The position numbers and the translations under genes are program-made. From assembly GCF_020736365.1 (NCBI RefSeq), contig NZ_CP085988.1:3416001-3480000 (forward strand): 64,000 nt of DNA. The letters are read 5' to 3'. How positions within the stretch are numbered: the stretch's first letter is position 1; each line of letters begins with the position of its first letter. This document shows positions 6,882-55,352 of the stretch, piece after piece. This DNA comes from Clostridium sp. M62/1. GTDB taxonomy: Bacteria; Bacillota; Clostridia; Lachnospirales; Lachnospiraceae. The notes beneath the pieces are model-generated. The model made no database searches and was not told where the DNA came from. It was given only the letters and a program-made list of their open reading frames with translations.

Positions 6882-6914
6882 TTGTTTCTCCTTTCCCACA
6901 ATCACACTGTGTTT

Positions 6915-39734: not shown

Positions 39735-39792
39735 GGAATTATGATATAATTTTTTATTCCGGTAAAGTCACAAAAAATTATATCATAATTCC
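39735..39792. repeat. Conserved-loop hairpin element, copy 1
   Basis: A perfect 21-bp stem (39735-39755 with 39772-39792) encloses the loop ATTCCGGTAAAGTCAC. The loop core is shared with the copies at 48285-48342, 55132-55197 and 55292-55352, although the stem sequence is different. T and A runs flank the loop on the inside of the stem, unlike an ordinary terminator. It lies in the 352-bp gap between gcvPB and the kinase-like gene. Confidence 0.82.
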
Positions 39793-39894
39793 CCCTGTTC
39801 TGCTAATGCGGAAAAGTAAATTTTTCCCCACAGATTGATTTCTAATTTCAGAGATATTGATCCTCAAACTTCCAGTTCCTGAAACAGACAGAGA

Positions 39895-39959
39895 AAAAGA
39901 AGGCTGCTGTGACTTCTCCTGCATACGCTTCGGAGAGGTGCGGCAGCAGCTCTTCTTTT
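39895..39959 (-). terminator. Terminator after gcvPB
   Basis: AAAAGAAGGCTGCTG (39895-39909) pairs with CAGCAGCTCTTCTTTT (39944-39959), one-base bulge, giving a T-run on the minus strand. The loop contains GAAGTCA on the minus strand right before the 3' arm, so it may be a diverged relative of the conserved-loop hairpins. Confidence 0.75.
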
Positions 39960-40042
39960 AGAAAAAACACTTATCTTTACTTAGGGAAACCCAAACTTCG
40001 CTCCGTTCGGGCAGCGGCTAACCTTCTGCGTTCCGCACAAAA

Positions 40043-41608
40043 TTAGTCTTCGTTGTATTTTCTCTGGTATACTTTCCAGGTGGTTGCCCATCTTGCCGGA
40101 TCATCCATGCCGGACTCGTCTACCTGATGTGTTACGCTTCTGTGAGGAGCGGTCTTGATGATCTCCGGATTCTCGTGAGCCTCCTTGAATACGTATTTCA
40201 GAGTCTCGATGTACTCGTCGATATCCTTCTTGGATGGTGTCTCTGTCGGCTCTAAGGTCATCGGCTCAGGCAGATAGAATGGATGGTGGGAAGTCCAGTA
40301 ATGCATACCGAAATCCATCATTCTTCTCTGAACATCCAGTGTTCCGATTCCTGTTTCCTTCTCCAGATTCTCTAAGGAGTATCTTGCCTGCTCTACTCTC
40401 TGGTTGTTGCCGTCCTGGTAGTATGCGGAAACTTCCGGAAGCTCCATCAGTTTCTTGAACAGGTAGTTGTTGTTTAATACAGAGGTCTTTGCAACCTGGT
40501 ATAATCCGTCCGGACCCATGCTTCTGATCCAGCAGTATGCCTTTAATACAACCTCAGCAACGCCGTACCACTCTCTGACCTTTCCAACTGCATTTGGATT
40601 TGCGCAGATGTCATAGTTTAAGAAGTACTTCTCTCCGTCGTAGTCGATGATCGGAGCCGGAAGGAATTTAACCAGATCCTTCTGAACACCTGTAGCGCCG
40701 CAGGCTGGGCCGCCGCATCCGTGAGGTGTGGAGAATGTCTTGTGCAGGTTGAAGAAGCACATATCGAATCCGGCATCTCTTGCTCTTGTAACTCCTAAGA
40801 GGCCGTTTGCATTTGCCTGATCGTAAGCGCAGAGACCGCCGATGGAGTGAACGTAGTCAACGAACTCTTTTACATGGCCGTTGTAAACGCCTGTATCCTC
40901 TGGGTTTGCTACAATGTAGCCTGCTGTCTTCTCAGAGCATGCTGCCTTTAACTGCTCTAAGGTCGGAAGTCCTGTCACTGGGTCTGGCTGTAAGTAGATA
41001 ATCTTAAATCCAGCTACTGCAGGAGCTGCCGCATCAGACGGATGGGAGTAAATGGTTGTGATGATCTCGTTTCTGTCCTCTCCCTTGTCCTTGAAGTAAG
41101 CGCGGATAACAGAAGCCATGGTCATGATACCCTGGGAACCGCCGCTTGGCTGGAAGGAGAAGTGATCCATTCCGGAAATCTCGCACATATACTTATCTGT
41201 ATTGTAGAAAATCTCCAGCATACCCTGTACAGTGGACGGATCCTGTAATGGATGGTAGTCGCGGATCAGGGCAGATAACTGCTCGTTTACCTTCGGGCTG
41301 TACTTAACTGTACAGGTTCCCTGGCCGATCTCGATGTTCACATCAGCGCCTAATGTCTGCTGTGCCAGTCTTGCATAGTGGCGAAGAACACGGCTCTGGG
41401 ACATTTCCGGCAGGTTTAACTTTGTGCTTCTCTTCATGCCCTCCGGAATAGCTGCTGTACCTTTTACTTCCTTGGCAACCTCTTCCTCAGGAGCACCTAC
41501 TAAAATACCTCTCTCACCTGGGGTGCTTAACTCGTAAATGATCGGCTCATCCCATTTTGCCTGGTGAAATTTTGTTCTGACCTTTGATGATCTATCTATT
41601 CTTTTCAC
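40043..41608 (-). CDS. gcvPB: Glycine dehydrogenase (decarboxylating) subunit 2
   Basis: A 521-residue PLP-dependent subunit of the glycine cleavage P-protein, which decarboxylates glycine and transfers the aminomethyl group to the lipoyl H-protein. The PLP lysine is in CFFNLHKTFSTPHGCGGPACGA; HFSFQPSGGSQGIMTM and the C-terminal RSVTHQVDESGMDDPARWATTW region fit the beta subunit. It follows gcvPA by 23 bp. gcvT, gcvH and lpd are absent from the window, so the complete system must lie elsewhere. The operon reads SDR-gcvPA-gcvPB from a candidate sigma-54 promoter. Confidence 0.95.
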   Translation of the reverse strand: MKRIDRSSKVRTKFHQAKWDEPIIYELSTPGERGILVGAPEEEVAKEVKGTAAIPEGMKRSTKLNLPEMSQSRVLRHYARLAQQTLGADVNIEIGQGTCTVKYSPKVNEQLSALIRDYHPLQDPSTVQGMLEIFYNTDKYMCEISGMDHFSFQPSGGSQGIMTMASVIRAYFKDKGEDRNEIITTIYSHPSDAAAPAVAGFKIIYLQPDPVTGLPTLEQLKAACSEKTAGYIVANPEDTGVYNGHVKEFVDYVHSIGGLCAYDQANANGLLGVTRARDAGFDMCFFNLHKTFSTPHGCGGPACGATGVQKDLVKFLPAPIIDYDGEKYFLNYDICANPNAVGKVREWYGVAEVVLKAYCWIRSMGPDGLYQVAKTSVLNNNYLFKKLMELPEVSAYYQDGNNQRVEQARYSLENLEKETGIGTLDVQRRMMDFGMHYWTSHHPFYLPEPMTLEPTETPSKKDIDEYIETLKYVFKEAHENPEIIKTAPHRSVTHQVDESGMDDPARWATTWKVYQRKYNED

Positions 41609-41631
41609 AATATCATTCCTTTCCGCGCAGC

Positions 41632-43023
41632 CTATTTGATAACCTCAGCGATTGCTGCTGCCAGTGTATCCAGATCTTCCTTCATATGAACCTCTGTCAC
41701 GCAGTACAGAGCAGACTGTCCCAGATTCGGGAACTCCTTGGATAAGTCTTTTCCTCCGAAGATGCCCTTTACAAGGAGAGCCTTGTTGATCTCCTCAACA
41801 GTCTTTCCTGTCTCTGTAAAGTCAATGACAAACTCTTTGAAGAATACGCTTCCGAATGGATTTACCTTGATTCCAGGAATCTCGGAGAGCTTCTTTGCAG
41901 CGTACTGTGCATTTGCCATGATTAACTCGTCAACCTCTGCCATACCCTGAGGTCCCATAGTAGCCAGGTAAACGCCTGCTGTGATTCCCCAAAGTGCAGA
42001 CTGTGTACCAACGTACTCTTTACCATGCTCTCTGTGGTGTCCGAAAGAAGTTCTGTCGTAGGCAACATCACCGAAGCCGTACTCGCCTGGCTCGGAAGTC
42101 GGAGCGATACCAAACAGTCTGGACGGGAACTCCATAACGAACTTCTCATCATCTGTTGTAGCCATAAATCCGGACTGGCCGCCGCCGTAGAACATATGAA
42201 TGCCCAGTGGCTGTAAGTCACCGCAGACAATATCTGCACCGTATGTCGGAGGTGTAGCCAGAACGCCTAAGGAAATCGGATCAATACCTACAAGGCTTAA
42301 TCCGCCTGCTGCATGTACTGCATCGGAGATAGCCTGTCCGTTTGGTTCAATCACGCCTAAGTAGTTCGGGTTCTCGAAATACATACCGATTACATCGTCG
42401 TTTAATTTTGCCTTTAAGTCATCTAAATCAATGGTTCCCTGAGCGGTTGCCTTTACCTTCTCGAACTTGATTACGCTCTCTGCGTAGTTCTTCATAACGG
42501 CCAGCTTCTGAGGATCGATAATCTCAGGAACCAGAACAACAGAGCGGTTTGTGATTCTCTGTGCCATTCTTACTGTTGTAGCGGCAGCCTGTGCCCAGTC
42601 CATAGTAGGTACGTTTACAACGTCCATATCTACTAACTCAGCAACCATGCTGGCATACTCGAACAGAGACTGGAAACGTCCCTCATCGTTGTATGGCTCG
42701 CCGCCGTATGCTGTTAAGAACTCGCCCTTTCCGTTGATCTCGTCGCAGATAGCCGGAACGTAATGCTGCCAGCAGCCTGCGCCTAAGAAGTTTAAGTTCT
42801 TGTGGCAGTCTGTATCCTTGGAGAGAACTTTCTCCACGTGTCTTCTCAGCTCATACTCAGAACCAAATGCCTTCGGCAGGTTCATATTCTCTTTTAATTT
42901 TAAAATCTCTGGAACGTTCTTGTGAAGCTCCTCCAGAGAGTTCATTCCGATCTCGTGGAGCATCTCCTCCTGAATCTCAGGAACTGAGTTCGGTATGTAA
43001 GGATGGCTTGCATATCCTTTCAT
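41632..43023 (-). CDS. gcvPA: Glycine dehydrogenase (decarboxylating) subunit 1
   Basis: A 463-residue first subunit of the split P-protein. HPYIPNSVPEIQEEMLHEIGMNSLEELHKNVPE at the start and FLGAGCWQHYVPAICDEINGKGEFLTAYGGEPYNDEGRFQSLFEYASMVAELVDMDVVN are typical of GcvPA. It has the PLP-enzyme fold but no catalytic lysine; it forms the heterotetramer with GcvPB. ATG 43023 follows AAAGGAGG; the frame starting at 43086 is longer only by chance. It is the middle gene of the operon. Confidence 0.95.
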   Translation of the reverse strand: MKGYASHPYIPNSVPEIQEEMLHEIGMNSLEELHKNVPEILKLKENMNLPKAFGSEYELRRHVEKVLSKDTDCHKNLNFLGAGCWQHYVPAICDEINGKGEFLTAYGGEPYNDEGRFQSLFEYASMVAELVDMDVVNVPTMDWAQAAATTVRMAQRITNRSVVLVPEIIDPQKLAVMKNYAESVIKFEKVKATAQGTIDLDDLKAKLNDDVIGMYFENPNYLGVIEPNGQAISDAVHAAGGLSLVGIDPISLGVLATPPTYGADIVCGDLQPLGIHMFYGGGQSGFMATTDDEKFVMEFPSRLFGIAPTSEPGEYGFGDVAYDRTSFGHHREHGKEYVGTQSALWGITAGVYLATMGPQGMAEVDELIMANAQYAAKKLSEIPGIKVNPFGSVFFKEFVIDFTETGKTVEEINKALLVKGIFGGKDLSKEFPNLGQSALYCVTEVHMKEDLDTLAAAIAEVIK

Positions 43024-43148
43024 TTTTATAATTCCTCCTTTAATTTCGGGTTTTATATTCCGGGGAAATGAGGCGTTCTGCCCCATTTCCCTTCATTTCT
43101 TCCTTCATGCAGTCTGTGCTGCCTGAGAGCAGCTTCCAGAACGGCTGA

Positions 43149-43946
43149 TTATGCGATTCCGCCGCCGTCTACTACCAGTGCTGCACCTGTGATCCAGCTT
43201 GATAAGTCGCTTGCCAGGAAGAGAACTGCATTTGCGATATCCTCCGGCATACCGATTCTTGCAAGAGGTCTGCCAGTTCCGCAGTCTGCCAGATAAGAAT
43301 CCATCTGCTCGCCGCCCTCTTTGACAACGCCTGTCTGCTTTCCTTCATCGCGGAGCATTGCTGTATCTGTGTCGCCTGGGTTTACGCTGTTGACACGGAT
43401 GTTCTGATGACCGTGGTCAATAGCCATAGCTCTTGTTACGTTTACAATACCGCCCTTAACTGCGCAGTAAGCAGCTGCCAGGTCGCCTCCCTTTAAGCCC
43501 CAGCCGGAACCTGTGTTGATGATGCTTCCGCCGCCGTTTGCTGCCATTACCGGGATTGTGTACTTGGAGAACAGGAACAGTCCCTTTAAGCCTACATCCA
43601 GAACGAAATCCCACTCCTTCTCTGTCAGGTCTGCGATAGTCTTTCTTACTGTAACGCCTGCATTGTTGTGAAGGATATCAATTCTTCCATATTTTGCTAC
43701 AACGCCGTCAATCGTTGCCTTTACCTGCTCCTCGTTTGTAACATCACATTTGAAGAATGTCACATCTCTGCCTGCCTGGCGAAGCTCCTCAGCTTTCTCC
43801 TCACCCTTCGGGCTGATATCTACCATAGCTACCTTTGCGCCGTAAGCGGAGAGAATCTCAACAACTCCCAGTCCGATTCCTGAGCTTCCGCCCGTAACAA
43901 CTGCTACCTTGCCAGTCAGGTTTAATGGATCTTTCTTTGTGATCAT
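43149..43946 (-). CDS. Short-chain dehydrogenase/reductase
   Basis: A 265-residue classical SDR: NAD(P)-binding VVTGGSSGIGLG near residue 15, the NNAG motif in LHNNAGVT, catalytic Ser in INTGSGWG and Tyr-x-x-x-Lys as YCAVKGG, where the spacing Y-C-A-V-K is preserved. The Asp in MVDIS favours NAD(H). The substrate is unknown; position as first gene of the gcvP operon suggests a step in glycine, serine or threonine-related metabolism. ATG 43946 is preferred to 43955, which overlaps the AAGGAGG site. Confidence 0.85.
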   Translation of the reverse strand: MITKKDPLNLTGKVAVVTGGSSGIGLGVVEILSAYGAKVAMVDISPKGEEKAEELRQAGRDVTFFKCDVTNEEQVKATIDGVVAKYGRIDILHNNAGVTVRKTIADLTEKEWDFVLDVGLKGLFLFSKYTIPVMAANGGGSIINTGSGWGLKGGDLAAAYCAVKGGIVNVTRAMAIDHGHQNIRVNSVNPGDTDTAMLRDEGKQTGVVKEGGEQMDSYLADCGTGRPLARIGMPEDIANAVLFLASDLSSWITGAALVVDGGGIA

Positions 43947-44090
43947 AAATGTCATCCTCCTTTATATATGTTCATTATTAATGCGTACAGGTTACCGGTT
44001 AAAACAGAAGCCGCTTTTGCTCTTTCAGCCTTTTCTTTCTCTTCTGTTTTGCTTTTAAAAGCCGTATCCTTTTTTCACCCATTTATTAAA

Positions 44091-44106
44091 GCAAGGCTCA
44101 TGCCAA
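44091..44106 (-). promoter_or_regulatory. Candidate sigma-54 promoter of SDR-gcvPA-gcvPB
   Basis: On the minus strand TTGGCATGAGCCTTGC has GG and GC exactly 10 bases apart, the -24/-12 layout, 145 bp upstream of the SDR start. Confidence 0.72.
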
Positions 44107-44247
44107 AAAAAGCAGAACTTTTTCATTTATCTGTATTTTATTCCCTCTTTATTAGTAAAAACGGCCTTTTTCCTGAATAAAATGCCGCTTTTTGTTTTTT
44201 TATTTTCTTTTGTGATGGCTGTCTGCAAAGGCTTTTTGCCATTTTAA

Positions 44248-44325
44248 TGTCACCTGATTTGTCATATTTTCCAGGTTTTGATGGCAAATGTCAATAGTTT
44301 GTCATCTTTTTTCAAGATATTGTCA
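44248..44325 (+). promoter_or_regulatory. Five TGTCA boxes between the SDR operon and the activator gene
   Basis: TGTCA occurs in direct orientation at 44248, 44260, 44289, 44300 and 44321, about 140-220 bp upstream of the SDR-operon -24/-12 promoter. The spacing (12, 29, 11, 21) is close to whole helical turns. This is where an enhancer for a sigma-54 activator is expected; the same box occurs before the NhaC and grdE genes. Confidence 0.55.
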
Positions 44326-44411
44326 TCATTTTTCCTGTGTGTTATAATCTAGCTGTCAAACTGTACATCCTATTATATTATAAAATACGATCAATCATAG
44401 GGGGAACAATT

Positions 44412-46133
44412 ATGACTCAGTTAGAAGATATGCGCTCTGCTGTCGAGCACTTTGTTTCAGCAGCCGCTGAGGCCTTCCGCGTGGAAGCCGCCGTTTTTGA
44501 CAATGAGAGCAACCTGTTTTTCTGCACTCCCACCTATCTGAAGAAAAAGGGCAATGCAGTCCACTACGCGTTCATCCAGGATGTCATTGTCAATGGCAAT
44601 GTCCTTGTCACAGAGCCTGGCAAAATGCCTGCCTGCATCGGATGCCGTTTTAACGAGCACTGCCCCGCTACCATGGAAATCCTCTGCTGCATCCACAGCG
44701 GAACAGAGGTGGCCGGGGTTATCTCCTTTACCGCCTTTACAAAAGAAGGACAAAAGCGCGTTTCCGCGCATACGGATATCTACCTGAATGCCATTACAAA
44801 GCTCTCGAGCCTGATCGGCGAATACCTTCAGCAGCTCTCAGACGACGGATCCGCTGCAGACACGATAAACCTCATTGAGAATCTGATGGCGCTGTACGAA
44901 CAGCCGCTGCTCTTAACAGATCCCAACGGCGTCGTCCTGCGCTACAACAGCCTGGCGGCAAAAATTCTCAAGTTCTGCAATGTGTCAGCCACCAGCCTGC
45001 GCCAGATCTTTTCCGAGGACACTGCCAGAAAAATCACCTCCGGCAATGATCTGTACGAAAAGAAAGTATCTATCGGCGAGAATACCGCCAAGGTGACGAC
45101 CCGCTCCATCTACTCCGGAGATCACATCCACTCGATCCTTGTGAGAATTTCAAACGAGTTTTATGAAAGCCAGGCAGAATCCGGCTCTTTTCAGAAGCTC
45201 ATCGGTTCCAGCAAGGAATTCTCTCATATACAAAAGATGATCAAGCGTGTGGCTGACAGCCCCACCCCCATCCTGATTACCGGGGAGACTGGAACGGGAA
45301 AAGAGCTGGTAGCCCGGTCCATCCATGAGCAGAGCCGCCGGGCAAAATATCCCTTTGTAGCTATCAACTGTTCCAGTATCCCTGAAAACCTCTTCGAAAG
45401 CGAACTGTTCGGCTACGAGGAAGGCTCCTTTACGGGAGCAAAAAAGGGCGGAAAAATGGGAAAAATTGAGCTGGCTCAGGGCGGAACCCTGTTTCTCGAT
45501 GAGCTGGGGGAAATGCCCCTCTCTGTCCAGCCAAAGCTGCTGCGCGTCCTGCAGGAATATGAGCTGGAGAGGGTAGGCTCCACCAAAAAAATCCATTTGG
45601 ACATTAGAATTGTGGCAGCTACCAACCGTGATCTTGCTGATATGATCAAAGAGGGTAAATTTCGTGAGGATCTCTTCTACCGTATCAGCGTAATTAATAT
45701 TAAGCTGCCCCCTCTCCGGGAGCGGAAAGATGACATTATACCCATCAGCAAAAATTATCTGGAGCTGCTGCACAGCCGCATGAGCACTCCCCTCAGAAAA
45801 ATCTCGTCTGAGGCAGAGAAGCTGTTCCTCAATTATCCCTGGCCCGGAAATATCCGAGAGCTTCAGAACGTTATTGAGTATGCGGCCAACCTCTGCGACG
45901 GGGACACACTGAATCCTTCCGATCTGCCGGAACATCTGATTTCAAGGCTGAATCTGGAATTCAGTGAAAAGCAGGAACCCCGCTCCGCTCATCTTCCCGA
46001 TTCCCAGGAAAAGCAGATTCAGGAGCTTCTGGCAACCTACGGCCATACACTTGAGGGCAAGAAACGAATTGCAGCTGCCCTCGGAATCAGCCTGAGAACT
46101 CTTTACCGCAAGCTGAATCAGATGCAGCTTTAA
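44412..46133 (+). CDS. Sigma-54-dependent transcriptional activator
   Basis: A 573-residue enhancer-binding protein. Residues 1-160 form an N-terminal sensory region with Cys residues (MPACIGCRFNEHCPATMEILCCIH) that could hold a metal or respond to redox; a PAS-like segment follows. The AAA+ domain has Walker A GETGTGKE, the sigma-54 contact loop GSFTGA (usual form GAFTGA), Walker B GGTLFLDELGEM and R-fingers. The C terminus is a Fis-type helix-turn-helix (LEGKKRIAAALGISLRTLYRKLNQM). ATG 44412 follows AGGGGGA. It is divergent from SDR-gcvPA-gcvPB and upstream of the NhaC gene, each with a -24/-12 promoter, so it probably activates glycine metabolism. Confidence 0.92.
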   Translation: MTQLEDMRSAVEHFVSAAAEAFRVEAAVFDNESNLFFCTPTYLKKKGNAVHYAFIQDVIVNGNVLVTEPGKMPACIGCRFNEHCPATMEILCCIHSGTEVAGVISFTAFTKEGQKRVSAHTDIYLNAITKLSSLIGEYLQQLSDDGSAADTINLIENLMALYEQPLLLTDPNGVVLRYNSLAAKILKFCNVSATSLRQIFSEDTARKITSGNDLYEKKVSIGENTAKVTTRSIYSGDHIHSILVRISNEFYESQAESGSFQKLIGSSKEFSHIQKMIKRVADSPTPILITGETGTGKELVARSIHEQSRRAKYPFVAINCSSIPENLFESELFGYEEGSFTGAKKGGKMGKIELAQGGTLFLDELGEMPLSVQPKLLRVLQEYELERVGSTKKIHLDIRIVAATNRDLADMIKEGKFREDLFYRISVINIKLPPLRERKDDIIPISKNYLELLHSRMSTPLRKISSEAEKLFLNYPWPGNIRELQNVIEYAANLCDGDTLNPSDLPEHLISRLNLEFSEKQEPRSAHLPDSQEKQIQELLATYGHTLEGKKRIAAALGISLRTLYRKLNQMQL

Positions 46134-46235
46134 CTTAATTATCGATTTGCTATATGTTTAGGAAAGACTGGCTGGAAGCCGGGCAGAAAATCTCTGCCTT
46201 TCCAGCCAGAAATTTTAATTGTTTTTTAAGATATT

Positions 46236-46249
46236 TGTCAAATTTGACA
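46236..46249. promoter_or_regulatory. TGTCA-N4-TGACA palindrome, candidate enhancer site of the NhaC gene
   Basis: TGTCAAATTTGACA is a perfect palindrome about 200 bp upstream of the -24/-12 promoter at 46449. Further TGACA/TGTCA boxes follow up to about 46290. The same TGTCA-N4-TGACA layout occurs upstream of grdE (TGTCATCTTTGACA). Confidence 0.6.
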
Positions 46250-46448
46250 TTCCATTGACACCTTTTATGACAGATTCAGCTGTCAATTTATCTTCATACT
46301 TTCTGTTTTTTTGCATCTTCCGGCCTTATCAAAAAACCTATTTCACTCCTTTTACAAAATTTTAACTGACGACAAAAAGCCCTTTTTTCAGCGTTTTTTT
46401 ATCAAACTATAATGTATTTTTTATATCTTTTTCGCACATTTTATTTTC

Positions 46449-46464
46449 TTGGCATCTTTCTTGC
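46449..46464 (+). promoter_or_regulatory. Candidate sigma-54 promoter of the NhaC-type gene
   Basis: TTGGCATCTTTCTTGC has GG and GC 10 bases apart and matches the -24/-12 consensus closely, 43 bp upstream of the start codon. The 373-bp gap 46134-46506 contains only these control elements. Confidence 0.78.
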
Positions 46465-46506
46465 TTTTTAGTTAGACAACAATTTCATAAAAGAGGAGGA
46501 AACTAT

Positions 46507-48108
46507 ATGGAAACTGGTTATGGCATTTTAGCCCTCGTACCGCCTGTGATTGCGATTGCGCTTTGCTTCGCGACGAAACAGGTACTTATCTCTATGTTTG
46601 CAGGTTTGTTTGCCGGATGTCTGATTATTTCTAATTGGAACCCGTTTGCAGCCTGTGCTTACGCTCTGGATCAGATTGCAGTGAATATGTCCGGGAATAT
46701 TGTCCTGCTCCTGTTCACCCTGTTCATGGGCGTCGGCATCTCTTTCATCTGGAAGCTGGGCGGAAGCTTCGCTCTGGCAGCTGCTGCCAAGAAGCGTTTC
46801 AAAAAGCGCCGCTCTGTCTGCCTGGGAACCTGGGGACTCGGTATGTGCTGCTCCGTTAACGACTGTCTGGCAGCTGCTATCGACGGAAACGTATTCCGCG
46901 ATATCTGTAAAGAGTACCGTATCTCATCTGAGAAATTCTCCTACGTTCTCGACGCTACAGCCGCTCCGGCAGCTGCATTCTTCATTTCCGACTGGATCGC
47001 TTACCAGATCGGTATGATTGGCCAGGGACTTGACGCAGCAGGAATCACAGGTCTTACTCCTGTAGGCGCTTATTTCCAGACTCTTCCGTTCAATATGTAC
47101 TCTATCTTCACCCTGCTTTTCGTGGGAATGCTGATGTACACAGGACGCGACTACGGTCCAATGTTAAAGGCTGAGGCCCGTTGTCTGGAGACTGGACAGT
47201 TTACACGTCCAGGTGCAAAGCCAATGCTTGATGTAGGAAGCGAACTTGGAGAGGCAAAGCAGACAAAACCGATGATCCGCTCCTTCGTTCTTCCGATTGT
47301 TATTACATTCGCTATCATCATTTTCGGTATCATCTACACAGGATGGACCAGCCCGGATCGTACCGGTTCCGGACTTATGGACATCTTAAATGTCTGCGAT
47401 GTTCAGCTGGCTCTCTACTGGGGCTCCTTCGGAATGGCAGTTACAGGTATCGTAATCGCCCTTGTTTCCAAGATCATGACCTTCGACGAGACCATGTCTA
47501 CTATCGTAGACGGCTTCAAGCTGATGGCCCTTACAGGAGCTATTCTGGTTATGGCCTGGTCACTGGCTGAGGTTACAAAGAGTATGGGACTTGGAGAGTT
47601 CGTTGCTCACTATGTAGGCGGCAACATCCCGACAGGACTTCTTCCTGTTCTGGTACTGCTCTGCTCCATGTTAGTTGCATTCGCAACCGGTACTTCCTGG
47701 GGAACCATGGCTATCATGACTCCTCTGGCTATCCAGTTGGCCTACATGATCACAAACGATGTGCACTTCTCCGTTGGTATGTGCGGCGCCGTATTATCAG
47801 GAGCTATCTTCGGCGACCACTGCTCACCGGTATCTGATACCACCGTTATGGCCTCCCTGTTCTCAGGCGCAGACCACATCGACCACGTTGGTACGCAGAT
47901 TCCTTACACCTGTACCGTTGGCGCAGTTATCGCAGTTCTGTATGTACTGTACGGCTTCTTCCGCCTCTCCCCGGTTATTCTGATTCCGGTCGGACTTGTG
48001 GCGCTGTACTTCTTACAGATTATCTTACATAACATCTTCATGAAGAAGTATGGAATTGATCCAAACTACTCAAAGACCATGACAGAAGATCATGTGGTAG
48101 CAAAATAA
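46507..48108 (+). CDS. NhaC-family transporter
   Basis: A 533-residue membrane protein with about 12 hydrophobic segments. TSWGTMAIMTPLAIQLAY and FGDHCSPVSDTTVMASLFSGADHIDH are characteristic of the NhaC family, annotated as Na+/H+ antiporters but also including exchangers of organic ions. Being under a sigma-54 promoter between a sigma-54 activator and the selenium/glycine reductase genes, it might take up glycine or exchange a product; this is inference. The start has AGAGGAGG. Terminated by a strong hairpin at 48167-48213. Confidence 0.88.
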   Translation: METGYGILALVPPVIAIALCFATKQVLISMFAGLFAGCLIISNWNPFAACAYALDQIAVNMSGNIVLLLFTLFMGVGISFIWKLGGSFALAAAAKKRFKKRRSVCLGTWGLGMCCSVNDCLAAAIDGNVFRDICKEYRISSEKFSYVLDATAAPAAAFFISDWIAYQIGMIGQGLDAAGITGLTPVGAYFQTLPFNMYSIFTLLFVGMLMYTGRDYGPMLKAEARCLETGQFTRPGAKPMLDVGSELGEAKQTKPMIRSFVLPIVITFAIIIFGIIYTGWTSPDRTGSGLMDILNVCDVQLALYWGSFGMAVTGIVIALVSKIMTFDETMSTIVDGFKLMALTGAILVMAWSLAEVTKSMGLGEFVAHYVGGNIPTGLLPVLVLLCSMLVAFATGTSWGTMAIMTPLAIQLAYMITNDVHFSVGMCGAVLSGAIFGDHCSPVSDTTVMASLFSGADHIDHVGTQIPYTCTVGAVIAVLYVLYGFFRLSPVILIPVGLVALYFLQIILHNIFMKKYGIDPNYSKTMTEDHVVAK

Positions 48109-48166
48109 AATTGTACGAGGGGCTGTGCAAAAAGCACAGAGTGAAAAAAAAGAAAATTGAATAAAA

Positions 48167-48213
48167 AAGAAGCTTTACGGCAGCATCGCAAAAGCCGTAA
48201 AGCTTCTTTTTTT
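48167..48213 (+). terminator. Terminator of the NhaC-type gene
   Basis: AAGAAGCTTTACGGC (48167-48181) pairs perfectly with GCCGTAAAGCTTCTT (48194-48208) followed by T's. Confidence 0.9.
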
Positions 48214-48284
48214 ATTGAACTTCTGCTCTCTTCCCGCTCCATTTTCTTTTCATGACTCTCTCCTGTAAGAAAACAGACATAAAA

Positions 48285-48342
48285 CGGGAGGAATGTGAGG
48301 ATTTTGTTCCGGTAAAGTCACAAAACTCTCACATTCCTCCCG
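48285..48342. repeat. Conserved-loop hairpin element, copy 2
   Basis: CGGGAGGAATGTGAG at 48285-48299 pairs with its complement ending at 48342, with a two-base swap mismatch below TTTTG/CAAAA. The loop is TTCCGGTAAAGTCA, identical to copy 1. It lies between convergent genes, about 70 bp beyond the terminator of the NhaC gene. Confidence 0.82.
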
Positions 48343-48364
48343 CATCTCTTTGCAGTTTTCTTTT

Positions 48365-49513
48365 TTACTCTTTGGCCATCTCTCTCACAGCTCTGATTCC
48401 TGCTTCAATTTCCTCCTCTGTGTTAAACCAGGAGAAGGAGAATCTCACGATTCCCTGCTCCACAGTTCCCAGAGACTGGTGCATCAGAGGAGCACAGTGG
48501 GCTCCCGGCCGCGTGGCGATTCCATAGACCGTTTCCAGCTCATCGCTGACTCTCGAGGAATCGTACTCCCCAATGTTAATGGCCGCCACAGCCGTCCTCC
48601 TGAAACGGCTCAGACTGTCCTCAAAATCGCCGTAGACTTTGACACCGGGTATGCCTCTTACACCCTCATAAAACTGCATCAGAAGAGCGTTTTCCCGGCT
48701 GTGGATATTCTCCACGCCTGTCTTATCGATAAAGTCCAGGGCTGCATTAAGGCCGGCAATTCCGTGGCCGTTGAGAGTTCCCGCTTCAAGCCTCACCGGC
48801 ATCTCGGAAGGGTGTTCTTTCAGAAAGCTGTGGACTCCGCTGCCTCCCCGCTTGAGAGGTGCAATATCCACTCCCTCCCGGACACAGAGGCCTCCCGTTC
48901 CCTGAGGTCCCATCAGACCCTTATGCCCGGTAAAGCACAGGACATCCGCCTGAAATACCTCCATATCCACCGGATAGGCTCCTGCTGTCTGGGAAATGTC
49001 GGCGATAAAAAGAAGGCCGTGTTTTTTACAGAACTCCCCCACTCTCTTCAGATCCACCACATTTCCTGTCACATTGGAAGCATGGGTACAGATCACCGCC
49101 TTGGTGTTTTTCTTGAGATTTGCCTCAAATTCTTCATATTTCAGCCTTCCCAGGCTGTCGCAGGTGACAAAGGACACATCGGTGCCCTGCTCTGCCAGAT
49201 GAAACAAAGGCCTTAAAACGGAGTTGTGCTCCAGGACTGTCGTGATCACATGATCCTGAGGCCCGATCAGCCCGCAGATGGCTGTATTGAGGCTCTCTGT
49301 CGCATTGCAGGTAAACGCCGTCTGCCTAGGCTCTCCCGCATGAAACAGGCGGGCGATTTTTTCCCTTGTGCTGAAAATAATTCTCGAGGCGTCCATGGAC
49401 GCCTCGCTGGCTCCCCTTCCTGAATTTCCAAAATTCATGAGAGCCCTGGACACGGCGTCTGCTACCTGGGCGGGCTTCTTCATAGTTGTAGCCGCATTGT
49501 CAAAATATATCAT
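48365..49513 (-). CDS. Cysteine desulfurase/selenocysteine lyase-like aminotransferase class V
   Basis: A 382-residue PLP enzyme of the TIGR01977 type (EF2568 group), found with selenium genes. The PLP lysine is in CFTGHKGLMGPQGTGG and the catalytic Cys in RPGAHCAPLMHQSLGT. N terminus MIYFDNAATTMKKP is typical. It could mobilise sulfur or selenium for downstream Se metabolism. Same strand as DUF3343, TusA-like, yedE, selB and selA genes, and last in that series. Confidence 0.88.
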   Translation of the reverse strand: MIYFDNAATTMKKPAQVADAVSRALMNFGNSGRGASEASMDASRIIFSTREKIARLFHAGEPRQTAFTCNATESLNTAICGLIGPQDHVITTVLEHNSVLRPLFHLAEQGTDVSFVTCDSLGRLKYEEFEANLKKNTKAVICTHASNVTGNVVDLKRVGEFCKKHGLLFIADISQTAGAYPVDMEVFQADVLCFTGHKGLMGPQGTGGLCVREGVDIAPLKRGGSGVHSFLKEHPSEMPVRLEAGTLNGHGIAGLNAALDFIDKTGVENIHSRENALLMQFYEGVRGIPGVKVYGDFEDSLSRFRRTAVAAINIGEYDSSRVSDELETVYGIATRPGAHCAPLMHQSLGTVEQGIVRFSFSWFNTEEEIEAGIRAVREMAKE

Positions 49514-49611
49514 ACTGTATCCGCCTTTCCAATCTGCTGCAAAACCGTTTTATGGTTTGACAGCTGCAAATGGCAAATTTGACAAATATGCCATCATACT
49601 TCTTACCAGTT

Positions 49612-49848
49612 CTAATACAGAATTTCCGCAAAATCTTCCCACTCAAGCCCTTTTTTCCGGAGAAAATCTTTAAATACCTCTGCATGTTCCGGGCTTGTAC
49701 ACCAGGCCAGACCGCAGCCGGCCGACAGCTCCCGCGGCACAGGGATCATGCGCCCCGGCCTTCCGGCCTCCTTGCATGCCTTTTCCAGAGCAATGGCATC
49801 GGCTGTTGTGTGGAATGTAATAATCAGTGTCGGTTCTTTTTTTCTCAT
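49612..49848 (-). CDS. DUF3343 protein, putative Se/S carrier
   Basis: A 78-residue protein starting MRKKEPTLIITFHTTADAIALEKACKE, with VPRELSAGCGLAWC, the Cys-containing signature of DUF3343 (PF11823). These small proteins accompany selenium genes and may carry Se or S as persulfide; not proven. The start ATG 49848 has AGAGAGA upstream; a frame from 49917 has no support. The Cys pair and the neighbouring desulfurase suggest a transfer chain to TusA-like protein or SelD. Confidence 0.82.
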   Translation of the reverse strand: MRKKEPTLIITFHTTADAIALEKACKEAGRPGRMIPVPRELSAGCGLAWCTSPEHAEVFKDFLRKKGLEWEDFAEILY

Positions 49849-49946
49849 ATTCTCTCTTTCATTTATGCTGCAACGGTCCAGTCTTCCGCTCTGGGGCGGC
49901 ATCCGGACCGCTGACACGTTTTGCGATACGTATAAACTTCTGTTTT

Positions 49947-50028
49947 CAGCAGTTTGGCACGGGATCCCCCGGCGCTTTCATGCATTCTGCGCGAAAGCAC
50001 CGGGGGATCCCGAAAGCCGAACTGCTGC
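49947..50028 (-). terminator. Very long hairpin between DUF3343 and TusA-like genes
   Basis: CAGCAGTTTGGC, CGGGATCCCCCGG and GCTTTC pair in order with GAAAGC, CCGGGGGATCCCG and GCCGAACTGCTG: about 31 bp of nearly perfect stem with small internal loops and a 13-nt loop, starting right after the TusA-like stop. A T-run follows on the plus strand side and TGAAAA on the other. Confidence 0.75.
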
Positions 50029-50031
50029 TTT

Positions 50032-50238
50032 TTATTCAATAATCAGTTCAAAGTCTTCGCCATTTTCTCTGACAGAAACATTTTTTCCCTGGCTCTTTGC
50101 GTATTTCTCCACATTCTGTCTTGTATGGACTTCGCTGACGAGCACCCGAATGGTTTCACTTCCATGTTTTTTAATGGCATCGGCTGTCATCATTACCGGC
50201 TCCGGGCAGGAAAGCCCTCTTGCATCTACCTCGTACAT
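50032..50238 (-). CDS. TusA/SirA-like sulfur (selenium) carrier protein
   Basis: A 68-residue TusA-fold protein with the active Cys in LSCPEPVMMTADAI and the C-terminal ENGEDFELIIE strand. In selenium clusters such domains (as in YedF) are thought to bind Se as perselenide. Here the domain stands alone, without the second YedF domain. It follows yedE on the same strand by about 45 bp, supporting a transporter-carrier pair. GAGGTGAC is the ribosome site. Confidence 0.88.
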   Translation of the reverse strand: MYEVDARGLSCPEPVMMTADAIKKHGSETIRVLVSEVHTRQNVEKYAKSQGKNVSVRENGEDFELIIE

Positions 50239-50284
50239 TCTCTGTCACCTCTCATTCATGATCTTTCACTTTTCTGCTGCACTT

Positions 50285-51373
50285 TTATTTTTTCCCTTTG
50301 GAAGGCAAAAAACCAATCATAAACAGCACCACGATGGCAATCACCAGCGCCACCTTTCCAGCCATGGCCGGACCGCCTGCTACAGCTTCCGCTGTCTCAG
50401 TAGCCGCTGCCGCCGCCGAAGCCGCCAGACCAAAGTTATGGCAGAAAGCCGCTCCTACAAACAGTCCCAGAAAGGTCACTGCTGCATCGGAGGAGCCCTG
50501 TCCTGTCAGGACGAGCTGCCTTAACGGACATCCGCCCGCAAGCACAGCAGCAAATCCCACTGCATACATTCCCAGGAAATTCCAGATATGCTGGGAGTGA
50601 GCTACCGGCTGTCCTGCAAAGGAGAGCTTAAATCCGCCTGTGGCCAGGTTGAATACCAGCATTACAACAAACAGTCCGCCGAGCACGCTGAGAAGGTCAA
50701 AATTTCTCATAAGGATTACATCGCGAAAACCTCCTGCAAAGCAGGTGCGGCTTTTCTGCGCCACGGCTCCGAATACAAGTCCTGCGATCAGGGATGCCGC
50801 CACCGGAGCATGCATGCTTCCCGGGCCGGACTCACTGGACACAAACAGAGTCGTTGTAAGCGACAGCACAAACAGAAATACCAGAAGTGCCGGGATCACA
50901 AATCCGCTGGATTCCTTGGTCGGATAAGCTCTGCCCAGCGAAAATCCTCTCTTAAGGGCAAGAGTACCGGTAAAAATTCCCAGCACAAAGCCTGGAAGTG
51001 CTACCACGGCATTCAGATCTCCGGCTGAAAGTCTGAGAAGCAGACGCAGCGGGCAGCCCAGAAATACCAGGGAGCCAATCATCATAATCACGCCCAGCAG
51101 GAAACGGATCATCGGTGAGGAGCCAGATGTGGAACGGTACTCCTTCGTGGCAATGGAAATCAGAAACGCTCCGCACACAATCCCCACGATCTCCGGTCTG
51201 AAATACTGGACAATCGCTGCAGAGTGCAGTTTCATAGAGCCTGCTGTATCCCGGATAAAGCAGGCAATACAGAGCGCCATGTTGGCCGGGTTCCCCAGAA
51301 GCGCCAGCGCCGCTGCCGCAATTCCCAGGATCGCTCCCAGGCCGAGCCTTGTTGTCAAGTTACTGTTATTCAT
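50285..51373 (-). CDS. yedE: YedE-family selenium/sulfur transporter
   Basis: A 362-residue membrane protein of the YeeE/YedE family with about nine to ten hydrophobic segments and the conserved Cys motifs SLVFLGCPLRLLLRL and VLAGGCPLRQLVLTGQG, plus SRTCFAGGFRDVILMR. Homologues beside selenium genes (TIGR04112 type) are regarded as Se-compound importers; thiosulfate import is known for relatives. The C-terminal hydrophobic segment after an Ala-rich stretch is normal. Lies between selB and the TusA-like gene. Confidence 0.9.
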   Translation of the reverse strand: MNNSNLTTRLGLGAILGIAAAALALLGNPANMALCIACFIRDTAGSMKLHSAAIVQYFRPEIVGIVCGAFLISIATKEYRSTSGSSPMIRFLLGVIMMIGSLVFLGCPLRLLLRLSAGDLNAVVALPGFVLGIFTGTLALKRGFSLGRAYPTKESSGFVIPALLVFLFVLSLTTTLFVSSESGPGSMHAPVAASLIAGLVFGAVAQKSRTCFAGGFRDVILMRNFDLLSVLGGLFVVMLVFNLATGGFKLSFAGQPVAHSQHIWNFLGMYAVGFAAVLAGGCPLRQLVLTGQGSSDAAVTFLGLFVGAAFCHNFGLAASAAAAATETAEAVAGGPAMAGKVALVIAIVVLFMIGFLPSKGKK

Positions 51374-51526
51374 TTCTTATCTCCCCCTTATAGGATGTAT
51401 ATTCTATGAACCAGGTGAAAAGGAAGGGCAGACAGGTTACCTCCCCTGTCCCCTTCTTTTTCACCTGGAATGCATAGCTTTTTGCGGCCTCCCTGCTGGC
51501 TGCTCCAGGCAAAAAACCAAGGGTTC

Positions 51527-53440
51527 CTATTTTCCTCCCGGAATCCTCGCGTCCCCCACCTTCTTCGTGATCTTCATCTGATCGTAGGTCTCCAGCAGCA
51601 TCACTGCGTATTTTCTTGAGGTGCCTAAAAGATCCCTGAATTCTCCCAGAGTAATTTCAGGATGGGAGCTCAGGTAGTCTCTCAGCACGCTCAGAGCCCG
51701 ATCCCAGTGTTCCTTATGCATCAGAACCCCTGTTCCGGCCTTTACGAGAACCCCCTGCTTGGTAAGCTCTGCCAGCACCTGCTTGGCCTGCTTTTTATCC
51801 TTATAGGCGCTCACCAGCTCCTCTGTGGATGGGACCTCGATTCCCGCCTTTTTATATATATTTTCCAGATCGGTAACCAGTCTCGACGCCTCGTCTGAAT
51901 AGCTGACCGTAAATCCTGCCACGGAGACAATGCTTCCCTGGATGGAAATCACCTTCCGCTTCTCCAGCTCTGCCATCAGAGTCTCCGCTTTCTTCATGCT
52001 CTGAAGATGCAGTCTCTCCGCCAGACGGCTCTTAAGCTCTTCCCGATCCATGCCTCCTACAATGGGATTTTCCCGGTGGAACTGGGCCAGAATCTCCTTT
52101 GCAGTCTCCGCGACGCGCTCCCAGTAGGCCTTTCCCACAAAGCTTCCGTCGTTCAGGTGAAGGATCTTCTTTTTATTCCTGAGTGTATCCAGCAGCTTTT
52201 CCGCCTCAGATACCGTCAGATCCATCCACGCAGCCAGCTCCTTCGGCTCCGGGAATCGGCGGCTCTCCTCGTCCACCATCTGTTCCAGTACCTCGATGTC
52301 TGTGCCCGTCTTTTTCAGGCGCAGAGACTCGATCACCGCCTCCTGGCCCCTCTTGTGCTTATCAGCTGCCGGATTCAGCACGGTTCCTCCTCCGAAGGTT
52401 TCCACCGGAGAATAGAAGCGGACAATAAATTTGTCATTTCTCTTGACACAGATTGGCTCGTCGAAGCGAAGCTGAACAAAGGCCTCCTGCCCCGCCTCGA
52501 TTACGTCGGCGTCCAACAGGATCACCTTTCCTATCACCTGGGCGGAGCCGTAGCTTAAATGTACCCGGTCGCCGTTTTTGAGTTTCCTCTGTGTGGAGCC
52601 AAACAGTCTCAGCGTCGCATCCACCATGGTACTGTTTACCAGGGAACCAGGATAGGCCAGCACCTCCCCGCGGCTCAGCTCCTCCTTCTTGATGCCTGCC
52701 AGATTGATGGCTGTCCTCTGCCCTGCAAAAGCCTTTTCCTCCTTCTGGCCATGGCTCTGAACTCCCCTGATCTTTAAGAGCCTTTCCTGAGGATAGACCA
52801 TCACCTCCTGTCCCGTTTCACACATTCCCTCGATCAGAGTACCTGTGACAACGGTTCCAAAGCCCTCCATGGTAAACACCCGGTCAATGGGAAGGCGGAA
52901 CAGCTCGGCCTCCTCCCTGCGCTTTCCGGTTTTCTTTGCCATGTCAATGATCATCTGCTTTAACGTTTCAATGTTCTCCCCGGTGTAGGATGACACTCGG
53001 ATGCGGGGGGCCTGCTCCAGGAAGCTGCCCTCCACCAGCTCATTCACATCCTCCTCAACCATATCCGCCCAGTCGCTGTCCACCGTATCAGATTTTGTGA
53101 GAACAATGATTCCCTGGCGGATCTGAAGCATTTTCAGGATCTCAAAGTGCTCCACCGTCTGGGGCATGACCCCTTCATCCAGGGCGATTACGAGAAGTAC
53201 AAGATCAATGCCTCCGATTCCTGCAAGCATGTTTTTGACAAACTTCTCATGGCCCGGAACGTCGATAATTCCGATGTGGACACCGTCCGTATCCAGAAGG
53301 TTTGCAAAGCCCAGCTCAATGGTGATTCCTCGCTTCTTCTCCTCCTTCAGCCTGTCTGTGTCAATTCCGCTGAGAGCCTTGATCAGACAGGTTTTGCCGT
53401 GATCCACATGTCCCGCAGTTCCAACAATCACATTCTGCAT
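51527..53440 (-). CDS. selB: Selenocysteine-specific elongation factor
   Basis: A 637-residue SelB, the GTPase that delivers Sec-tRNA to UGA when it binds the SECIS hairpin. The G1 motif [11 protein letters not shown] is near the start, then DVPGHEKF (G3) and LTKSD (G4); beta-barrel domains follow, and the C-terminal half contains winged-helix repeats that bind SECIS. ATG 53440 lies four bases after the selA stop, with GGGAGG upstream. Needed for grdA and grdB in this window. Confidence 0.97.
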
Positions 53441-53444
53441 CCTG

Positions 53445-54917
53445 CTATTCCTCCCTGTCCGCCTCTGTCTCTGCCGGGCGGGCTGCTGTCCTTCCCGTTT
53501 CCTCTTTTTCCATCTCAGCGCTGCTGTGCTCTGCTCTGCAGAGAGCCTCTGCAATCCGCTGGAACTCATCATCCTCGATTGTGCGGACATTCAGATACAC
53601 TGCATCGTGGAATACATGGGTAATCACAGGCAACTCTGCCTTCCTGAGAAGACGCTCCAGCCTTGCCTCTGAGATCGTATCACTTTTGATGGAAACTGCA
53701 TAGCCAGGAAGCATCACACCCGGCGCTGAACCGCCGCCCACCTGATCCTCGCAGGCCTCCACAGCATAGACAAAGCTCTCTGTCTGCTCCTCCAGAAGCG
53801 CCTTCAGGCGGCCGGCTCTCTCAAGAAGCTCCTCCCTTCCCATGGTAAGCATCCGGAGAATCGGCACGTTTCTCCTGCACGTACTCCTGTCCAGATACTC
53901 GAAGAAAGTAGCCTCCATGGCAGAAAGCGTCATCTTGTCCACCCGGAATGCTCTGGCAAGGGGATGGGCCTTCATTCTGTCAATCAGTTCCTTCTTTCCG
54001 ATGATCACGCCGCCCTGCGGTCCGCCTAAAAGCTTGTCTCCGCTGAACAGCACCACATCTGCTCCGTCCTTCAGAGCGCCCTGGACCGTCGGCTCGTCAA
54101 TGCCGAACTCCCCAAGGTCATTCATGAGTCCGCTGCCGAGGTCGTAGATAACAGGAATGTTCCACTCCCTTCCAAGCTCCGCCAGCTCGGGAACTGTGGT
54201 TTCCTGGGTAAATCCGATAATCCTGTAATTGCTCGTGTGGACCTTTAAGAGTGCTCCTGTGACGCCCTCCGTGTAAGCATTCCGGTAGTCAGAAACCTTC
54301 GTCTTATTTGTCGTCCCGATGTCCCTTAAAATTGCGCCGCTCTCCTCCATAATCTCCGGAATGCGGAAGGAGCCGCCGATCTCCACCAGCTCTCCTCTGG
54401 ACACAATTACTTCCTTTCCTCTTGCGAGGGCTGACAGGCAGAGCATGGTGGCAGCTGCATTGTTGTTCACCACCATGGCAGCCTCCGCGCCTGTCACCTT
54501 CCTGATAATCTCCTCCACATGGCTGTGTCGGGAACCTCTGGCCCCCTTCTTCAAATCGTATTCCAGAGTGGAATAATGAGCCGCGGCCTCGCAGACTCCC
54601 TCAATGGCTCTCTCAGACAGATTCGCCCTCCCCAGGTTCGTGTGAAGCACAATCCCTGTGGCATTGATTACCCGTCTTAAATTCCTCTTCTGGCGCAGCC
54701 GGATCAGCTTCAGCGCCTCGTCAGCCACCTGCTCCCGGCTCATCACTCTGTCTGTTTTTCCTTCTAAAATTCCGGCTCTCAGCGCGTCAATCTGTTCGCG
54801 CACAGCCTCCACAATCACACTGCGCGGCATTTTCTCCATAAAAAAAATAAGGCGCTCATCTCGCAGCACCTCATCAATCTTAGGGATTTTACGCAGTAAA
54901 ACCTGTTTTTCTCCCAT
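53445..54917 (-). CDS. selA: L-seryl-tRNA(Sec) selenium transferase
   Basis: A 490-residue PLP enzyme that converts Ser-tRNA(Sec) to Sec-tRNA(Sec) with selenophosphate. VNNNAAATMLCLSALA and the PLP lysine in LFSGDKLLGGPQGG are diagnostic. The C terminus has a Glu/Ala-rich tail. It begins 43 bp from the tRNA-Sec gene and ends next to selB, so selC-selA-selB form one unit. selD is not in the window. Confidence 0.97.
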   Translation of the reverse strand: MGEKQVLLRKIPKIDEVLRDERLIFFMEKMPRSVIVEAVREQIDALRAGILEGKTDRVMSREQVADEALKLIRLRQKRNLRRVINATGIVLHTNLGRANLSERAIEGVCEAAAHYSTLEYDLKKGARGSRHSHVEEIIRKVTGAEAAMVVNNNAAATMLCLSALARGKEVIVSRGELVEIGGSFRIPEIMEESGAILRDIGTTNKTKVSDYRNAYTEGVTGALLKVHTSNYRIIGFTQETTVPELAELGREWNIPVIYDLGSGLMNDLGEFGIDEPTVQGALKDGADVVLFSGDKLLGGPQGGVIIGKKELIDRMKAHPLARAFRVDKMTLSAMEATFFEYLDRSTCRRNVPILRMLTMGREELLERAGRLKALLEEQTESFVYAVEACEDQVGGGSAPGVMLPGYAVSIKSDTISEARLERLLRKAELPVITHVFHDAVYLNVRTIEDDEFQRIAEALCRAEHSSAEMEKEETGRTAARPAETEADREE

Positions 54918-54959
54918 AGCAATATTATCCTTCCTTATGACTACCAGATGAAAAAGAAA

Positions 54960-55055
54960 CGGAGGAGGTGGGAATCGAACCCACCCGGGGAGCTCTTAAC
55001 TCCCCACAACGGTTTTGAAGACCGCGAGGCACACCAGCAACCTATCTGCCTCCTC
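54960..55055 (-). tRNA. selC: tRNA-Sec (anticodon TCA)
   Basis: On the minus strand the anticodon arm is CGGT-CTTCAAA-ACCG with anticodon TCA, which reads UGA. A long variable arm (GGGGAG/CTCCCC) and T-arm GTGGG-TTCGATT-CCCAC are clear. The gene is about 96 nt, the size of bacterial tRNA-Sec. The 5' and 3' acceptor ends pair as GAGGAGG/CCTCCTC, so the exact first base and discriminator are uncertain by one or two. It lies directly upstream of selA. Confidence 0.93.
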
Positions 55056-55131
55056 ATTCTGCATAGCATGTAAAATACTATCATATATTCAGTTTTCTGT
55101 CAAGAATTTTAGGGAATTTTGTAAATGGGGC

Positions 55132-55197
55132 GGTCGGGAAAGGATGCAGTTTTTTTGTTCCAGAAAAGTCACAAAAAAACTGCATCCTTTCCCGACC
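55132..55197. repeat. Conserved-loop hairpin element, copy 3
   Basis: A perfect 25-bp stem (55132-55156 with 55173-55197) around GTTCCAGAAAAGTCAC. The stem begins GGTCGGGAAAGG and ends in T7/A7 at the loop. It lies in the 314-bp gap between tRNA-Sec and grdD, 94 bp from copy 4. Confidence 0.85.
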
Positions 55198-55291
55198 TTT
55201 ATCCACTTTACACTCTTCCCGGGTGAGAGGGGAGAAGCTGCCCATCATGCCCTTCTTCCCTCTGTTTTTTCTCCCCCGTAAGCAGTGGTAA

Positions 55292-55352
55292 GGGAAGAGA
55301 ACGAGAGTTTTATGTGACTTCGCTGGAACAGAAAACTCTCGTTCTCTTTCCC
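55292..55352. repeat. Conserved-loop hairpin element, copy 4 (opposite orientation)
   Basis: GGGAAGAGAACGAGAG (from 55292) pairs with CTCTCGTTCTCTTTCCC (to 55352) with one bulged base. On the minus strand the loop reads TGTTCCAGCGAAGTCACA. It is 17 bp after the grdD stop. Confidence 0.83.

Follow-up and report, generated by a model that had tools for sequence, protein, structure and literature searches.

The 64,000-nucleotide (nt) stretch of the Clostridium sp. M62/1 genome analysed here (contig NZ_CP085988.1, positions 3,416,001 to 3,480,000; hereafter the window, with positions counted from its first letter) carries four intergenic hairpins that belong to a family in which the loop is nearly invariant and the stems vary. 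These hairpins had been pointed out in a first-pass annotation, and we confirmed all of them at the positions reported there (the last one ending at 55351), with the loop on the - strand in the last and on the + strand in the other three. The first (L025, 39735-39792, + strand) has 21 uninterrupted AT-rich pairs and an A.C mismatch nearer the loop, which reads TCCGGTAAAGTC (39758-39769, + strand); it lies antisense to both flanking - strand genes and overlaps a promoter-like site. The second (L011, 48285-48342, + strand), a 23-base-pair (bp) stem with one G.U pair and one mismatch around the same loop sequence TCCGGTAAAGTC (48308-48319, + strand), is flanked by convergent genes; the stop codon of the - strand gene (the strand opposite to the loop) is 22 nt away and that of the + strand gene 176 nt away. 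The third (L012, 55132-55197, + strand) has a perfect 27-bp stem and the loop TCCAGAAAAGTC (55159-55170, + strand). It points away from the downstream selenocysteine tRNA (tRNA-Sec) gene (54961-55053, - strand; RF01852) and sits 28 nt upstream of a promoter-like site of this gene, TTGACA-17-TAGTAT (55075-55103, - strand), which is a consensus match only. The fourth (L013, 55292-55351, - strand), with 24-nt arms, a mismatch near the loop TCCAGCGAAGTC (55316-55327, - strand) and one G.U pair in the outer stem, begins 19 nt past the stop codon of the gene for glycine/sarcosine/betaine reductase component C alpha (55370-56488, - strand; NF040747 above cut-off) and forms a converging pair with the third. 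The arms of the four hairpins are 23-27 nt long with 0-2 non-Watson-Crick pairs, which is longer than the 16-25 bp given in the first-pass annotation. The loop core TTCCRGNRAAGTCACA is found at all four without any mismatch; when up to 3 mismatches were allowed, the window gave 13 hits compared with 6.2 expected in shuffles, so that exact hits alone are informative. With a covariance model of the family the four hairpins score 63-79 bits.

By examining the whole genome (G000; 3.92 Mb, 2 contigs), we identified 31 well-supported hairpins with a full stem; three more members are provisional, and five copies are partial or decayed. This agrees with the earlier proposal of a new structured repeat family with many copies and covarying stems. 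The near-constant loop also held genome-wide: the pattern TTCCRGNRAAGTCAC has 31 exact matches and its reversed-pattern control has none, and every one of these matches falls within the hairpin family (27 in full-stem hairpins and 4 in units of a tandem array). Within the window, all copies are indeed in the glycine/selenium half, as had been stated, whereas in the genome most copies are elsewhere. The covariance model, built from 29 sequences, additionally recovers a copy at 1170141 with two mismatches to a longer pattern, as well as variant-loop copies at 431244, 555872 and 1644299 (57-69 bits); L094, L098 and L103, at these scores, are solid members. Three weaker hits with family-like loops (1928666, 2056679 and 3810668; 36.8-41.6 bits) were kept as provisional members (L104, L105 and L108), whose membership rests on loop likeness, because the E-values of the model overstate: with filters off, scores of up to 32.5 bits are obtained for ordinary hairpins of the window and of up to 50 for wrong-strand readings of family hairpins. 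Other hits of 30-38 bits with unlike loops (L106, L107, L109 and L110) were dropped, as were those at 3863291 and 2384530 (E above 0.01). Since 150 of 2377 first-look candidates were scored in the own-genome model search, further copies may be missing from this census. When two mismatches were allowed anywhere in the pattern, 46 hits were obtained, comprising 31 with 0-1 mismatches, two family copies and 13 others that are absent from the hits of the model. Counts out of 34 below include the well-supported and provisional hairpins and exclude the decayed copy at 1386863 (L033); counts out of 30 omit L103, L104, L105 and L108, and the four array units (L015 and L027-L029) were left out of the alignment and of the arm and flank statistics. 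Neither the four window hairpins nor the hairpins in 15 further loci match an Rfam 15 family above the gathering threshold, the below-threshold matches at family hairpins being mostly to microRNA models and once to CsrC. A plasmid search with 1951 bases around the hairpin pair of the window gave no match.

The stem is 24.1 bp long on average (standard deviation 2.6) and 21-28 bp in 28/30 members; it is about 16 bp in the provisional member L105. Among the 630 inner pairs (21 in each of 30 members), 619 are Watson-Crick pairs, 2 are G-U pairs and 9 are mismatches; the ordinary hairpins were picked by a score penalising G-U and therefore provide no baseline for this scarcity. The claim that the stems covary is well supported, as 22 of 23 stem columns in 29 aligned sequences have changes on both sides, and 218 double-change cells were counted compared with 55.4 (standard deviation 8.5) in shuffles, a control that ignores the relatedness of copies, and at most 52 with slid registers. 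Identity of the outer arms between members is 0.48, and 0.50 is expected from column composition. In bulk, the outer arms carry no visible signal of descent beyond a purine-rich 5' side (0.89 purine, compared with 0.50-0.57 in the sequence following 158 stop codons sampled from 400 kb). Exceptions to this divergence are the far-apart hairpins L024 and L030, whose outer arms are identical (14/14), and L017 and L094, 1.2 kb apart, which also have identical outer arms. Unlike the outer arms, the inner stem is partly conserved among members. The loop, UCC-R-GNRA-A-GUC, is 12 nt long, nearly invariant and closed by GU/AC; in exact members it varies at R, N and R alone, which is compatible with a GNRA turn, and some of the variants that the model recovered have 13-nt loops. 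The T-run/A-run that had been described as always present at the loop side is not constant, the forms TTTACAGT and TTTTCAGT both being common among members. We also considered a coding repeat and rejected it: the loop reads V-P-x-K-S in one frame, and the other frames are at least as open.

The copies are arranged in several ways. Six converging pairs are separated by 93-394 bp (L001/L019, L002/L003, L005/1170141, L009/L010, L012/L013 and L021/L022). A five-unit tandem loop array with a period of about 63.5 nt (L038, C1:3799735-3800046) follows the TtcA-like gene; its first unit alone has a full stem, and the 4 other units pair fully just near the loop. Downstream of dnaB (L031, C1 ~3863240-3863360), a full hairpin is followed by three degenerate halves with a period of about 35 nt, which consist of loop plus 3' arm, lack the 5' arm and have decayed loops. 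DUF2200 and PadR genes lie in the 1.2-kb stretch between L017 and L094 (C1:554640 and 555872); the two hairpins have the same arms, one of them has a 13-nt loop, and the similarity runs about 15 nt further downstream. Apart from such local duplication and repeat-bearing flanks, sequences outside the hairpins are hardly more alike than controls.

The strand of the hairpins relative to genes, which the first-pass annotation had suggested looking at, is clearly biased. Genes were called by the length of open reading frames (ORFs), with NCBIfam checks for 20 proteins and Pfam checks for 10, and stop codons were counted from 20 nt inside the hairpin to 30 nt before it. With ORFs of at least 240 aa, a stop codon lies on the loop strand at 16/34 hairpins and on the opposite strand at 2/34; the corresponding counts are 17/34 (-14 to +28 nt) and 3/34 with ORFs of at least 100 aa, and 18/34 and 6/34 with ORFs of at least 60 aa, where L006 and L013 are counted on both sides. 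The bias of the loop strand toward the gene that has just ended thus persists at each ORF threshold. Genes upstream on the same strand encode SecA (partial in the locus), DnaB, YchF, RibF, CysK, pyrophosphate-dependent phosphofructokinase, RsmI, a TtcA-like protein, TreR, YmfI, ABC transporters and the reductase component C alpha; those preceding L001, L009, L018 and L023 have no family match above cut-off. As the adjoining genes are mostly unrelated and of housekeeping type, the role of the hairpins is likely to be generic. Eight further hairpins follow a gene on the same strand at a distance of 36 to about 360 nt (L002, L004, L005, L007, L008, L030, L094 and L104), and L011 and L103 adjoin the end of an opposite-strand gene. 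Seven hairpins point away from the gene that comes next (L003, L012, L019, L020, L025 and the provisional L105 and L108); each lies 1-174 nt on the upstream side of a promoter-like site or overlaps it, and 4/7 precede S10, S13, rpoB or tRNA-Sec. One outward-pointing hairpin precedes S10 and another follows infA; S13 is likewise preceded, and L17 followed, by one. All hairpins occupy intergenic stretches that contain a gene end, and none was found between divergent genes by the ORF-based calls.

Similar hairpins, for which a search of other Lachnospiraceae had been proposed, were not found in any other of the family or order genomes searched. The genome sets overlap and all include G000: 61 relatives (among them 7 congeners), 397 family genomes and 392 order genomes. 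In the relatives, the 15-base loop core occurs outside G000 at 12 loci in 8 genomes, none of which is a hairpin, and 4 model hits in the congeners G004 and G007 proved to be ordinary hairpins. One locus of G007 (L232) contains two hairpins about 9 kb apart (6910-6952 and 15872-15914) that have the stem AAAGAACAGCCCGGACGG in common and different loops. The model search of the family genomes, in which 14 candidates per genome were scored with strict filters, gave matches in G000 and G016 alone. Of the 12 G016 loci, 10 carry an unrelated palindrome of the GGGGACGG type, and at the other two (L128 and L129) the stretch viewed did not contain the match. The ten G016 loci (L111-L114, L127 and L130-L134) represent a different repeat, namely dispersed long palindromes built on GTGAAACGGGGGACGGTTCTTCGTTCC with a conserved stem and a variable loop. 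The pattern search of the order genomes detected 29 copies, all in G000, and a single stray match in G069, which forms no hairpin (5/20 pairs). An exact 17-mer matches 12 loci in GTDB r220, at which 2-10 of 20 pairs can form; the species of G000 may be absent from that release, and the 17-mer represents one loop variant present in 11/31 exact own copies. A phage origin was rejected, as 35 viral stretches with a loop match have at most 11/20 inner pairs compared with 18-20 in 26 family members. Because the congeners are distant at 4-fold sites (36-53% identical in dnaB and ychF), the stems would have had time to saturate while the loop stayed fixed.

Taken together, these features suggest a new kind of element at gene ends, specific to this lineage. 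The explanation that we tentatively prefer, giving it somewhat less than an even chance, is that these lineage-specific extragenic palindromes act as transcript-end hairpins whose tip is read by some factor, both the function and the reader being our proposal. It is supported by covariation far above both controls, by a loop that is fixed while the arms vary and whose exact form is confined to the family, and by the strand-biased placement. The copies facing away from promoter-like sites, the degenerate loops of the half-copies that lack a 5' arm, the T-rich feet of 22/34 hairpins and the other terminator-like hairpins seen after dnaB and ychF in congeners count in its favour as well. Once transcribed, the hairpin would form at the 3' end of the RNA, where it may help stop transcription and/or protect the end; the pyrimidine-rich 3' arm would give a weak RNA:DNA hybrid, and a palindrome could act from both sides. 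The constant tip is predicted to comprise GU, a U.C/C.U mismatch pair, C-G, R.A and a GNRA-like turn, and either a factor acting in trans or the transcription complex might read it; that the tip is what gets read would explain why the loop is conserved and the stem is not. Copies upstream of promoters could end transcripts that leave the promoter backwards. The suggestion in the first-pass annotation of selection on an RNA or single-strand DNA structure is supported in part, and the evidence leads in two directions. Given a symmetric stem, a loop that prefers the strand of the gene speaks for the transcribed strand, i.e., for RNA, whereas the rarity of G-U pairs speaks for a constraint acting on both DNA strands, which may reflect bidirectional RNA, a DNA palindrome, or fold-back template switching that corrects one arm. 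The arms may accordingly stay perfect either by selection on both strands or by such template switching. A more specific version, in which a dedicated lineage factor reads one conserved tip at the ends of about 30 transcription units while the stems drift in concert, is possible and, in our view, rather doubtful. If true, it would amount to a bidirectional transcript-boundary code bracketing core operons (S10 to infA, S13 to L17, rpoB, secA and dnaB). About 30 unlike stems around one tip raise the questions of what reads the loop of a hairpin in terminator position and how the arms of a palindrome remain perfect while drifting.

Several observations weigh against transcript-end hairpins of this kind. 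The feet are equally T-rich on both strands (an 8-nt window at the 3' foot contains 5 or more T in 22/34 hairpins on the loop strand and in 21/34 on the other), and the longest T-run is only 2 in 12/34; many hairpins are therefore poor canonical terminators, and termination, if any, would be bidirectional and not obviously strong. Our terminator scan accepts loops of 3-8 alone and thus cannot judge family hairpins. L011 is already preceded by an ordinary terminator-like hairpin upstream (48163-48212, no strand assigned; 19-bp stem with an A-tract/T-tract and an unrelated loop), the one that scores 32.5 bits with the model. The promoter-like sites are consensus matches of a kind that chance often produces, with 23 in 18 kb compared with 15.5 in shuffles, and L108 has its site some 500 nt away from the next gene. 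Two G-U pairs in 630 are not what pure RNA-level selection predicts. Finally, L098 and the provisional L108 carry AUGA and CUAA in place of GNRA, and the variable positions of the loop were degenerate in the search pattern itself, a caveat eased by the search with two mismatches anywhere, which added only two family copies.

The main alternative is a non-autonomous mobile palindrome resembling repetitive extragenic palindromic (REP) sequences and bacterial interspersed mosaic elements (BIMEs), for which an endonuclease-type transposase would recognise the single-stranded loop DNA, the copies would disperse and the arms would diverge. We regard it as unlikely, at perhaps one chance in a few, although dispersed copies found in one lineage only, the identical outer arms of the far-apart L024 and L030 and the near-absence of G-U pairs, which suggests a DNA-level constraint, would all fit. 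An excerpt of a study on REP families describes stems of 5-13 bp, a GTAG or CGTC tag and frequent head-to-head dimers (PMC3733652); judged by the same excerpt, the family resembles REP/BIME sequences in being extragenic, dispersed, often in inverted pairs and sometimes clustered, its converging pairs and five-copy tandem array recalling REP dimers and clusters, and some REP families are likewise confined to a single species (PMC3733652). Unlike them, the family has stems of 24 bp on average that vary in sequence, with the loop alone constant, and no tag above background was detected: GTAG, GTGG or CGTC, on either strand, occurs at 15/34 hairpin feet and in 0.40 of 2000 random windows. The orientation bias relative to the upstream gene and flanks hardly more alike than controls also disagree with mobility. 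Moreover, AAGTCAC is absent on both strands from both ~3.3-kb loci of the 2 Y1_Tnp genes found in the genome, so that the transposase-recognised repeat suggested earlier is unsupported so far. These Y1 (IS200-like) transposase matches are located at 10-378 of the window (- strand) and at G000:C1:3634544-3634831; beside the former, just outside the start of the window, there is a tnpB-like frame in two pieces.

A less probable alternative, which we consider a long shot, is that the hairpins are ordinary intrinsic terminators into which a short loop module was inserted or on which it converged, the loop itself being functionless. Such terminators would be expected after stop codons, as observed here, and other terminator-like hairpins often occupy the corresponding sites in congeners (by eye, in 4/7 within 230 nt after dnaB and in 7/7 within 150 nt after ychF); the outer arms also lack a bulk signal of descent. 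However, this view leaves the invariance of the loop without a cause, and it does not account for outer 5' arms with 0.89 purine against the 0.50-0.57 found after stop codons, for a stem of 21-28 bp in 28/30 members, or for an inner stem that is partly conserved too. Least probable is a DNA-level boundary element, in which cruciforms, serving for instance as sites for a topoisomerase or a nucleoid protein, would bracket strongly expressed units. In its favour are palindromes that are nearly perfect and AT-rich at the centre, the 2/630 G-U pairs, and the position of hairpins ahead of S10, S13 and rpoB and behind infA and L17. A cruciform alone does not account for the strand preference that the loop shows with respect to the gene.

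By the features tested, the family is neither REP, nor an uptake-sequence terminator, nor an Rfam family. The tip resembles that of PyrR-binding hairpins, whose consensus is UCCNGNGAGGYU, compared with UCCRGNRAAGUC in the family. In this genome the best match to the PyrR element (RF00515) scores 26.8 bits against a threshold of 54, 0/4 matches lie at a family hairpin, and, unlike the PyrR element, the hairpins are near genes unrelated to pyrimidine synthesis. Uptake-sequence terminators of the Haemophilus uptake signal sequence (USS) type, in the passages of the source that treat them, also place a repeated sequence in terminator-position hairpins at gene ends (PMC5217627); there, two inverted motif copies build the stem and the motif is abundant genome-wide, whereas the present family has one asymmetric copy per loop and 31/31 exact motifs inside the family. 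The same passages mention a Bradyrhizobium japonicum motif, GAATCCAT(N)23ATGGATTC, which forms dozens of intergenic palindromes near gene 3' ends and in which the stem is conserved and the interior varies, the reverse of what we observe (PMC5217627). Repeated stem-loops are also known from the stem-loop-containing sequence families of bacterial genomes, gathered by sequence clustering according to the extracts available (PMC1590033, PMC2267715). The extragenic repeats compared here share stem sequence and this family shares just its loop, so a family with unrelated stems would largely be missed by such clustering. Titles and opening lines of abstracts, in a literature collection that leaves most subscription journals outside its coverage, revealed no loop-conserved, stem-variable hairpin family.

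Two further features of the window deserve mention. A diverged fifth copy had been proposed at 39895-39959 (- strand), where a hairpin bears the loop-like stretch AGGAGAAGTCACA with 10/12 loop letters; it scores 8.5 bits with filters off, below many ordinary hairpins of the window, and by this model test it is not a member. A SECIS_4 match (RF01990) was observed at 60571-60608 of the window (- strand), as would be expected if the glycine/selenium region encodes a selenoprotein.

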